Assembly (NCBI GenBank): GCA_002747105.1
Contig: PDSY01000013.1
Coordinates: 1-64,000, forward strand
Direction of reading: 5' to 3'
Length of the DNA stretch: 64,000 bases
Source of the DNA: Flavobacteriales bacterium
GTDB lineage: Bacteria; Bacteroidota; Bacteroidia; Flavobacteriales; Weeksellaceae
Positions 13,794-44,699 of this stretch are shown here, one piece after another. Both the position numbers and the translations under genes were made by a program. Under the pieces are notes generated by a model that had not been told where the DNA came from, ran no database searches, and saw only the letters and a program-made list of their open reading frames with translations. How positions within the stretch are numbered: position 1 is the first letter of the stretch; each line of letters begins with the position of its first letter.

Positions 13794-13802
13794 TAATGTC
13801 AA

Positions 13803-13842
13803 AATGTAGCAATGTAACAATGTAACAATGTAACAATATAGC
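13803..13842. repeat. octamer array AATGTAAC-like x5
   Basis: AATGTAGC AATGTAAC AATGTAAC AATGTAAC AATATAGC. Confidence 0.85.
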
Positions 13843-13850
13843 AATAATTT

Positions 13851-13887
13851 CAATCAATCATCAAATCATCAATCAACAAATCAATTA
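13851..13887. repeat. degenerate AATCA-word array, roughly 7-nt period
   Basis: CAATCAATCATCAAATCATCAATCAACAAATCAATTA adjoining the octamer array. Confidence 0.5.
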
Positions 13888-13897
13888 TACCTCAAAA

Positions 13898-14146
13898 ATG
13901 AAAACAATACAGATTAAAGCCAAAGAATTTTTCGAATTATTAAAATTAAAAGACACTTCTATGTGGGACATTTTCGCCCAAATATTAGATGAAAACGAAG
14001 AAAAAGAACTTATTTTTTTAGATGAAAATGAGAAAATTTTGTTCAATTATATTTTACCCAAAAACCTCGAAAAACTAAAAGCTGACCAAAAAACTTTCGC
14101 CAAAGAATATGCCGAAAAAATAGCGGAAATGAATCAAAGAAAGTAA
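13898..14146 (+). CDS. small hypothetical protein
   Basis: 82-aa ORF between co-directional genes, plausible codon usage. Confidence 0.6.
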   Translation: MKTIQIKAKEFFELLKLKDTSMWDIFAQILDENEEKELIFLDENEKILFNYILPKNLEKLKADQKTFAKEYAEKIAEMNQRK

Positions 14147-40022: not shown

Positions 40023-41147
40023 ATGCAAAACAAAGATTTTTACGGCGAAGAAAACTTCACCATTCAAAATACAAAAGTCAATGCAGAATGTCCTTCTAAT
40101 ATTGCCTTGATTAAATATTGGGGAAAATATAAAGGGCAAATTCCTGCCAATCCAAGTATTAGTTTTACCCTTAATCATTGTAAAACGAATACCGAAATCG
40201 AGTTTTTAGCAGGAGAAAAATTTGAAGTAAAAACCTTTTTAGCAGGACAAGAAGAAGTGAAATTTGCAGAGAAAATTGAAAAATATTTTCACCAAATTGA
40301 AGTTTATCTACCTTGGATTTTAAAAGGGAAATACATTATTAAAACAGAAAATACCTTTCCCCATAGTTCAGGAATTGCCAGTTCGGCATCAGGTTTTGGA
40401 GCCATTGCCAAATGTTTGATGGAATTAGATGAAATTTTTAGAGCCAAGAGCCAAGAACCAAGAGCCAAGAACCAAGAATCAAGAATCAAGACATCAGAGT
40501 CTACTATTTATAGCTTATCGCTTACCGCTAAAAACCAAAAAGCAAGTTTCCTTGCCAGATTAGGAAGCGGAAGTGCATGTAGAAGTTTGTACAATGGATT
40601 AGTGGTTTGGGGAGACACAGAGCAAGTAGAAGGAAGTTCGGATTTATTTGCTACGCCTTATCCTAATGATAAAGTGGCTGATATTTTTAAAAATTTCAAT
40701 GATTGGGTTCTCCTGATTCATGAAGGGCAAAAATCCGTAAGTTCGACTGTTGGACACGGTTTAATGAATACCAATCCTTATGCCGAAAGAAGATTTCAAG
40801 AGGCTAGGGAAAACTTTATACCTTTAAAAGAAATTTTAAAAACAGGAGATATAGAACGATTTATCACTTTGGTAGAACATGAAGCACTTACACTCCACGC
40901 AATGATGATGATGAGCGAACCTGCTTTTATTCTAATGAAAACAGGAACAATGGAAGTGATTAATAAAATTTGGGAATTTAGAAAGACCACCCAATTGCCT
41001 TTATTTTTCACCTTAGATGCTGGGGCAAATGTACATTTGTTATTTCCAGAAAATGAAAACTCGAAAGAGATCAAAACATTCATAGAAAAAGAACTTTTAC
41101 AGCATACCCAAAAAGGTGGCGTAGTAAAAGATTTTATGAAGTTTTAA
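40023..41147 (+). CDS. mvaD: diphosphomevalonate decarboxylase
   Basis: AECPSNIALIKYWGKYKGQIPANPSISFTL, FPHSSGIASSASGFGAIA, ARLGSGSACRSLYNGLVVWG. Confidence 0.93.
   Translation: MQNKDFYGEENFTIQNTKVNAECPSNIALIKYWGKYKGQIPANPSISFTLNHCKTNTEIEFLAGEKFEVKTFLAGQEEVKFAEKIEKYFHQIEVYLPWILKGKYIIKTENTFPHSSGIASSASGFGAIAKCLMELDEIFRAKSQEPRAKNQESRIKTSESTIYSLSLTAKNQKASFLARLGSGSACRSLYNGLVVWGDTEQVEGSSDLFATPYPNDKVADIFKNFNDWVLLIHEGQKSVSSTVGHGLMNTNPYAERRFQEARENFIPLKEILKTGDIERFITLVEHEALTLHAMMMMSEPAFILMKTGTMEVINKIWEFRKTTQLPLFFTLDAGANVHLLFPENENSKEIKTFIEKELLQHTQKGGVVKDFMKF
40442..40497 (+). repeat. in-frame heptamer array inside mvaD (ARYCAAG x7 plus one degenerate unit)
   Basis: AGCCAAG AGCCAAG AACCAAG AGCCAAG AACCAAG AATCAAG AATCAAG ACATCAG. 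Confidence 0.95.
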
Positions 41148-42803: not shown

Positions 42804-44699
42804 TTAACTGATTTTTTCCTGTAACTCTAACCAACGCATTTCCTTTTCTTCAAGCTCGTTGGTAAGACTTTCCAATTCAGTAGAAAGAAGACTTATCTTT
42901 TCGTAATCGGTTTCATTGTTCAATTTTGCCACTAATTCATCTCTCTTTTTTTCCAAAGTAGGCAGTTCTTTATCTATTAATTCTAATTCTCTCTTCTCTT
43001 TATATGATAATTTTTTAGGTTTTTGTTGTGAGGTGGTTTCCTTATTTTCTTGGCTCTTGACCTTCGATTCTTGGCTGTTAACTTTTAATTCTTGGTTCTT
43101 TCTTGCATCTTGACTTTTTTTCTCCCTATACTCTGTGAAATTACCTACAAAATCTTTGATTTTCCCTTCTCCTTCAAATGCCAAAATATGGTCGACAATT
43201 CTATCCATAAAATAACGGTCGTGAGAAACGATTAATAAACAACCTTGAAAATTCTGCAAAAAGTTTTCTAAAACGGTTAAAGTAGGTAAGTCTAAATCAT
43301 TGGTTGGCTCATCAAAAATTAAAAAATTAGGATTTTGATACAACACATACATCAGATGCAATCGCCTTTTTTCTCCTCCCGAAAGCTTAGCTATAGGCGA
43401 ATATTGGGTTTGGTCGTCAAATAAAAATAACCTTAAAAACTGCGATGCGGAAATGGTTCTTCCATTGGCTAATGGAAAGTTTTCTCCAATTTCTTTAATG
43501 AAATCAATTACCCTTTCATCTTCTTTGTAGGTAAGTCCTTTTTGGGAGAAATAACCAAATTTAATGGTTTCTCCTGTTTCTATTTCGCCACTATCAGCAG
43601 GTTCTAAATTTTGAATAATATTGAGTAAAGTAGATTTTCCTGCTCCATTTTTTCCTACAATCCCCACCTTTTCTCCTCGTTGAAATTGATAAGAAAAATC
43701 TTTCAAAAGTACTTTTTCGCCATAGGCTTTATCAATATTCTTCAATTCAAGGATTTTCTTTCCCAATCTTTTCATTTCAAAATCCAATTCCAAACTCTCC
43801 TTTTTGGTGTTGGTTTTGGCAATTTTTTTGGTGTCATAAAACGCATCAATCCTTGATTTTGACTTGGTTGTTCTCGCTTTGGGTTGCCTTCTCATCCATT
43901 CTAGCTCCTTTCTATAAAGGTTTTTAGCCTTATCTATCGTGGCATTCAGGTTATCCTCACGAATCATTTTATTTTCCAAATAAGTGGCATAGGCTCCTCG
44001 ATGAATGAAAAGCTGTTGGTCTTCCATTTCCCAAATCGTATCACAAACGGCATCTAAAAAATAACGGTCGTGCGTGACCAAAAGCAAGGTGATTTTGGCT
44101 TTATTCAAATAATTTTCCAACCATTCTACCATATCCACATCAAGGTGGTTGGTAGGCTCGTCCATTATTAAAAGGGTATGTTTATGCTCTGCTCGTGTTT
44201 CGGTCAGGAGTTTTGCCAAAGCTACTCTTTTCACCTGTCCTCCAGAAAGCGTTCCCATTTGAGCTGATAAATCGGTAATTTTCAGTTGAGATAAAATTTG
44301 TTTCATTTCGTTTTCTAAATCCCAAGCCTTTTGATTTTCCATTTCGGTAATGGCTTTTTCCATCTCATCTGGGTCATTAGAAATTAAAGATTGATGATAT
44401 TTTTTCAATGCCAAAATAGGAGCAGAATCTAAAGACATCATAAAATCTTCTACACTGATATTCGGTTCAAAATGAATCTCTTGGTCAAAAAGTACAATCT
44501 GAATATCCTTATTAATAGAAATTTCTCCTGCATCGGCAATTTCTTTTCCCAATAAAATTTTCAAAAGGGTAGATTTCCCACTTCCATTTTTGGCTACAAT
44601 GGCAATTTTATCACCTTCATTAATGTGAAAAGAAATATCTTGAAACAAAGTTTTTACGCCATAAGATTTCGTCAATCCTTCGGCAGAAACATAATTCAT
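42804..44699 (-). CDS. ABC-F family ATPase (Uup-like)
   Basis: two ABC domains GKNGSGKSTLLKILLG and GKNGAGKSTLLNII, LSGGQVKRVALAKLL, MDEPTNHLD, FDEPTNDLD, C-terminal coiled coil. Confidence 0.94.
   Translation of the reverse strand: MNYVSAEGLTKSYGVKTLFQDISFHINEGDKIAIVAKNGSGKSTLLKILLGKEIADAGEISINKDIQIVLFDQEIHFEPNISVEDFMMSLDSAPILALKKYHQSLISNDPDEMEKAITEMENQKAWDLENEMKQILSQLKITDLSAQMGTLSGGQVKRVALAKLLTETRAEHKHTLLIMDEPTNHLDVDMVEWLENYLNKAKITLLLVTHDRYFLDAVCDTIWEMEDQQLFIHRGAYATYLENKMIREDNLNATIDKAKNLYRKELEWMRRQPKARTTKSKSRIDAFYDTKKIAKTNTKKESLELDFEMKRLGKKILELKNIDKAYGEKVLLKDFSYQFQRGEKVGIVGKNGAGKSTLLNIIQNLEPADSGEIETGETIKFGYFSQKGLTYKEDERVIDFIKEIGENFPLANGRTISASQFLRLFLFDDQTQYSPIAKLSGGEKRRLHLMYVLYQNPNFLIFDEPTNDLDLPTLTVLENFLQNFQGCLLIVSHDRYFMDRIVDHILAFEGEGKIKDFVGNFTEYREKKSQDARKNQELKVNSQESKVKSQENKETTSQQKPKKLSYKEKRELELIDKELPTLEKKRDELVAKLNNETDYEKISLLSTELESLTNELEEKEMRWLELQEKIS
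43049..43104 (-). repeat. in-frame heptamer array inside the ABC-F gene, same CAAG family as in mvaD
   Basis: plus strand CTTGGCT CTTGACC TTCGATT CTTGGCT GTTAACT TTTAATT CTTGGTT CTTTCTT; coding strand AGCCAAG/GGTCAAG/AACCAAG. Confidence 0.85.

Follow-up and report, generated by a model that had tools for sequence, protein, structure and literature searches.

The heptamer array in mvaD of a Flavobacteriales bacterium is probably a passenger copy of the dispersed CAAGARY repeat family

Introduction

Several families of short tandemly repeated repetitive heptamers reportedly coexist in one genome of the cyanobacterium Calothrix, a situation similar to that considered here. Many bacterial genomes have an excess of heptamer repeats, on which little has been published; known examples are the dispersed heptamers of Xanthomonas (GGGAATC) and Nostoc (GGGGAYT) (PMC4692102). 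Direct repeats of TAACTGA are found in Beggiatoaceae, Cyanobacteria, and some Bacteroidetes, and are suspected to have spread horizontally by an unknown mechanism (PMC4679880). The palindromic elements of Rickettsia and Wolbachia lie in frame within unstructured segments of housekeeping proteins (as described in PMC2996958), and REP/BIME sequences are dispersed short palindromes that can form hairpins and also occur inside genes (PMC3733652).

The present study concerns an array of heptamers in the mvaD gene of a 64-kb stretch of DNA, hereafter called the window. The array was originally predicted to be a 56-nt in-frame insertion, with the remark that no established mobile element of this form was known. 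This interpretation is partly supported. Dispersed heptamer arrays have been described (PMC4692102; PMC4679880), in-frame insertion of repeats is known (PMC2996958), and the array, instead of being a self-contained element of 56 nt, is one of a family whose members usually lie at gene ends, where they are possible hairpin arms. That family is best read as belonging to a known general kind, the dispersed heptamers of Xanthomonas, Nostoc, and Beggiatoaceae.

Results

The heptamer array in mvaD

The features of the gene are as follows:

40023 to 41147, plus strand: mvaD, encoding diphosphomevalonate decarboxylase (Pfam, orthologue alignments, and decarboxylase matches in the PDB)
40438 to 40493, plus strand: heptamer array that opens with TTAGAGC as its head and continues with six CAAGARY units and a final CAAGACA; the encoded peptide is the RAKSQEPRAKNQESRIKT stretch
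40494 to 40535, plus strand: remainder of the lineage-specific loop, containing a degenerate (TTAYNGC)3 array at 40508-40529 (TRF and alignments)

The mvaD product matched the Pfam families MVD-like_N (1.7e-33) and MDD_C (3.8e-9). Its likely start is at 40023, close to which most orthologue alignments to MvaD begin; the open frame reaches upstream to 39963.

Read together with its flanks, the array is GAAATTT TTAGAGC CAAGAGC CAAGAAC CAAGAGC CAAGAAC CAAGAAT CAAGAAT CAAGACA TCAGAGT. TRF assigned a period of 7 (also 14 and 21) to positions 40440-40491. At lags of 4-30, the array was the strongest periodic segment of the window, and simulated versions contained no such segment; likewise, there were no three-unit matches in 1.28 Mb of order-3 Markov sequence built from the window. 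Direct reading, TRF, and Pfam agree that the array, at 40438-40493, is real and, as originally proposed, in frame in mvaD. A short array, TTATAGC TTATCGC TTACCGC, lies 3′ of it, and the insert as a whole is an array in one orientation followed by another, unrelated short array; it is not palindromic.

Seven equals 1 mod 3, and the three frames of the array encode one and the same cyclic heptapeptide. The forward strand of ARYCAAG is free of stop codons, and the reverse strand has a TGA in every unit in which Y is T. The earlier remark that eight units stay open only if no frame contains a stop is to be read in this light: openness in all frames belongs to the unit itself, and no coincidence is involved.

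The array lies in a variable loop of MvaD

We compared MvaD with 80 orthologues from Weeksellaceae and close kin. The loop that holds the array is variable and mostly short among them, and MvaD of the window is ~22 residues longer than most Weeksellaceae MvaD. As judged from the orthologues and their tree, the array segment is absent from most of them and is lineage-specific, in line with the original prediction; the lineage-specific stretch is, however, longer than the array and continues through the (TTAYNGC)3 repeats. Several genera have other repeats in this loop: two metagenome genomes (L062 and L087) have CAAGARY-like repeats; Cloacibacterium, Epilithonimonas, and others have heptamers of the CAAC type; L063 has an AATCATC-type word; and Epilithonimonas has a GAGAGCCTCAGGCTGA-type element. 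On a tree of MvaD calculated without the loop, the presence of any array changed at least 12 times, with array labels assigned by eye and many branches weakly supported. We also saw a dispersed-looking word, GCTTCGAGAGCCTCAGCCTGACA, in frame in this loop in L088, L090, L095, L096, L099, and L100, of which the named ones are mostly Epilithonimonas.

The best of five AlphaFold2 models, based on an 18-sequence alignment, had a mean pLDDT of 77, with values <50 for the array peptide (residues 145-165). All of the residues that are invariant in the alignment lie outside the array peptide and are retained in the window's protein. The array is best read as tolerated in a variable, probably disordered surface loop; it would play no part in catalysis and would be neutral. 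Comparison with orthologues that are at most about 80% identical suggests that the array was inserted into mvaD, and no donor array of the mvaD copy was identified. As a dispersed repeat placed in frame within an unstructured segment of a conserved protein, it resembles the Rickettsia and Wolbachia elements (PMC2996958). Those are palindromic, however, and mvaD holds just one tandem array, which is not.

CAAGARY arrays are dispersed through the genome and its relatives

The genome from which the window derives is a 1.2 Mb draft that is 57% complete, and it is the sole genome of its genus in the comparison. It contained 42 three-unit matches, compared to none in a reversed control, and when three bases of the unit were left free, 42 of 43 matches were ARY. 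The genome-wide search proposed in the original prediction was thus productive, since CAAGARY arrays were found both elsewhere in this genome and in relatives: a four-unit array was present in 52/200 genomes of the family, representing 14/34 genera, and in 11/398 genomes across the phylum. Tandem 7-nt units therefore occur at many loci above chance, in spacers as well as in genes, as is the case for dispersed heptamers. The distribution is patchy, even inside single genera, with one and the same unit turning up at many loci and in genera that are far apart. TAACTGA repeats are alike in forming heptamer arrays that are patchy over distant lineages and often lie directly before start codons; they differ in their word and their near-invariant unit, and have not been described as hairpin arms (PMC4679880). 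A four-unit CAAGARY array was also encountered in 101 stretches of a collection of 2.9 million viral-labelled contigs, some of which may be prophage or bacterial DNA, and we took these occurrences to be sporadic.

Arrays were located by reading the stretches around matches and random samples of the genomes. We considered and rejected a general period of 7 throughout intergenic DNA. In most genomes sampled, the mean autocorrelation was weak or absent, so that the arrays are discrete features, and strict de novo scans covering 80-164 kb of each genome returned just a handful of long arrays.

Among 95 arrays from the window's own and other genomes, positions 1-5 of the unit were nearly constant and positions 6-7 varied almost exclusively by transitions, although this result is favored by the seed used to find the arrays, which holds these positions fixed in two units. 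The fairer test comes from searches with a free triplet, in which the ARY rule was strict in the window's own genome and looser in Chryseobacterium.

Copies inside genes

Copies within genes are on the coding strand, where the Xanthomonas and Nostoc heptamers are reported to be under-represented (PMC4692102), and most of them occupy linkers or loops. The hosts include DNA polymerase I (PolA), with the array between the 5′-3′ and 3′-5′ exonuclease domains; LeuRS, with the array within the editing domain; 3-hydroxyacyl-CoA dehydrogenase, with the array directly after the C-terminal domain; a TilS-like PP-loop protein; proteins with a secretion sorting tail; and an enolase-superfamily protein. 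Another protein of the window's own genome, 606 aa in length (L177:6340-8157) and without a Pfam match, has six CAAGARY arrays in its coding sequence. Peptides such as QEPRAKNQESR and its kin, recurring in unrelated proteins, are accordingly explained as stray repeats rather than domains. At the Chryseobacterium locus L194, the corresponding loop of a secreted protein holds other, short repeat-like words in further species, but paralogues blur the orthology in this case.

The window itself holds a second site within a gene:

42804 to 44699, minus strand: gene for an ABC-F type ATPase, with two ABC_tran stretches and ABC_tran_CTD
43047 to 43100, minus strand: degenerate array of the CAAGARY type, on the coding strand of the ABC-F gene and immediately ahead of the part for the C-terminal domain

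This site had been reported as carrying the same repeat words as mvaD. It does belong to the same word family, but its units are clearly degenerate.

Spacer copies and hairpins

Arrays in spacers are placed with respect to the neighboring genes, as called by mechanical gene prediction. On the 5′ (head) side of the array, a gene boundary was found within 40 nt for 11/13 spacer arrays of the window's own genome, compared to 2/13 on the other side, and in all sampled genomes 59/76 spacer arrays were closer to the gene on the head side. The head-side gene is either a same-strand gene that has just ended or an opposite-strand gene that is starting; put differently, the purine-rich strand is the coding strand directly after a stop codon, or the opposite strand ~15 nt before a start codon. 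The heads themselves were mostly TTAGARY, as read by eye. This placement rule is that reported for the Xanthomonas and Nostoc heptamers, from which CAAGARY differs in having no G runs, and so no G-quadruplex, and in forming hairpins from inverted pairs (PMC4692102).

Such inverted pairs arise where both kinds of array share one spacer, and those at L173, L185, L208, L210, L211, L243, and L058 fold well. Across several flavours of repeat, the purine arm came first in 16 inverted pairs and second in one, the exception having a flavour that is not clearly purine-rich. Many spacer arrays of the window's own genome have no clear partner arm. An R/Y code in which the arms of a hairpin would pair unit by unit was rejected, as the arms carry different variants in L058 and others. 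At L173, the gene that precedes the spacer is conserved across the family. Most of the relatives compared carry a classic terminator-like hairpin (A-tract/stem/T-tract) behind its stop codon; at this place the window's own genome has a CAAGARY hairpin, which is not followed by a T run. REP/BIME sequences differ in that the hairpin arms described here are built of heptamers (PMC3733652). No GTAG or CGTC tag was noticed by eye at the foot of the hairpins.

One spacer of the window has the same build:

13794 to 13897, plus strand: spacer with an AATGTARC octamer array and a CAATCATC-type array (TRF)

Its octamer array follows directly on a stop codon whose last base is 13793; the CAATCATC-type array stops shortly before the ATG at 13898. 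Hairpins in spacers probably have a role at the ends of mRNAs or between genes.

Flavour turnover at one spacer in a related genus

We traced the L211 spacer of genome G459, from another family of the same class, through its genus in 30 species (L246-L275). The evidence on turnover thus concerns one spacer studied in depth, with one genome per species. The site lies between a gene ending in ...KSHH* and a gene beginning with MVTVTD.... In 30/30 spacers, 7 was the best period among lags of 4 to 11, and a hairpin was present in each, with folding energies 2.1 to 9.5 standard deviations below those of dinucleotide shuffles. The words of which the repeats are made were CAAGARY, AGATNTN, AGTANNN, GTGARTR, and mixtures of these.

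When flavour was mapped on a tree of the flanking coding sequences, it required 16 changes, compared to 16.4 with shuffled labels, and is without phylogenetic signal on this tree, about half of whose inner branches are weakly supported and whose flavour labels were assigned partly by eye. In the sister pair L250/L252, identity is 97-98% over 150 bases to each side of the spacer and 51% within it; for L269/L272, the corresponding values are 95-96% and 47%. The whole spacer is therefore replaced as a unit between sister species, with period 7 kept. The next spacer upstream is identical in L269/L272 and nearly so in L250/L252. This neighboring spacer also bears arrays, often of period 7 or 8. In L254, L256, and L270, a GC-rich palindrome (CCCCCTGAAGGGGG-like) replaces arrays there, and hairpins with matching arms are therefore not the rule everywhere.

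We also asked how common the flavour of the site is in the rest of the same genome. With the site itself removed, genome-wide counts of its flavour had a mean percentile of 0.71, compared to 0.52 when permuted, among the 24 genomes with a clear flavour, and none of 20,000 permutations was as high, in a test that is exploratory in that the four flavour patterns were picked after seeing the site and kinship was not formally corrected for. Kinship is an unlikely source of the concordance, because the flavour label is unclustered on the tree.

Discussion

Our best explanation for the array in mvaD, to which we assign a probability of roughly 0.75, is that it is a passenger copy of the dispersed heptamer family CAAGARY, tolerated in a variable loop. 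Arrays already present in a genome would be the source of new copies, and spacers would tend to take on a flavour that is abundant in their own genome. The occasional array would land in a gene and would persist there only if it lay on the strand free of stops and in a linker or loop. Where a stop-side and a start-side array share a spacer, they can fold into a hairpin whose 5′ arm is purine-rich.

The array might instead be an ordinary microsatellite: replication slippage would have expanded a chance seed in mvaD, as it would have done separately at every other locus without any exchange among them. Slippage does yield tandem arrays, some arrays are homogeneous (such as AAT x8 in L203), and in Chryseobacterium like neighboring units exceed expectation (64/175 vs. 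28%). In the window's own genome, however, the unit variants AAC, AAT, AGC, and AGT are evenly represented (22, 19, 19, and 20) and just 10/58 neighboring units are alike, which speaks against slippage, because slippage would make neighbors alike; on the order of units, we rejected it as the only cause in that genome. Given also that the same unit occurs at many loci and in distant genera, we consider the microsatellite explanation unlikely. The near-invariance of five of the seven positions, the restriction of the other two almost entirely to transitions, and the strict placement and orientation at gene ends would all suit a DNA- or RNA-binding protein that recognizes (CAAGARY)n, with selection keeping the units and the mvaD copy being regulatory or accidental. 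Such a binding site is nevertheless quite improbable, as sister species can have entirely different sequences at an orthologous spacer and still share its hairpin and period, and the in-gene copies have no common regulatory position.

Two further explanations look to MvaD itself. Selection of the repeat peptide as a functional linker or binding segment would agree with the intact frame and with the retention of the residues invariant among relatives, but the same peptide is present in unrelated proteins of this genome, orthologues do without it, and the loop is predicted with very low confidence (pLDDT <50), all of which makes a selected peptide highly improbable. Contingency repeats are known in bacteria, and the gain or loss of a single 7-nt unit would shift the frame and could switch mvaD on or off. 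We regard this as the least credible of the explanations: heterogeneous units hinder slippage, MvaD is a core enzyme of isoprenoid synthesis if the mevalonate route is the sole one, and the array is one of many whose host genes have no common theme.

The passenger reading can be extended to a broader proposal, which we hold only tentatively and at rather less than even odds, that Bacteroidota spacers contain so far undescribed replaceable hairpins, with heptamer (sometimes octamer) arms in a few interchangeable flavours, and that these are overwritten whole between stop and start codon, with a tendency toward an abundant flavour of the genome, by a putative machinery for copying or writing repeats of 7 nt. 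The array in mvaD would then be an off-target product of this machinery. In the limited literature compared, we found no description of hairpins that swap flavour, and matches to the repeat words concerned unrelated subjects and were taken as chance.

Related bacteria thus have differently worded seven-letter repeats in the same places, and these are swapped surprisingly fast. At a single spacer traceable in 30 species, the repeat wording is wholly replaced between relatives that are nearly identical, and both the period and the hairpin are retained. With strain panels, the questions of why the unit is seven and how the repeats spread become answerable.
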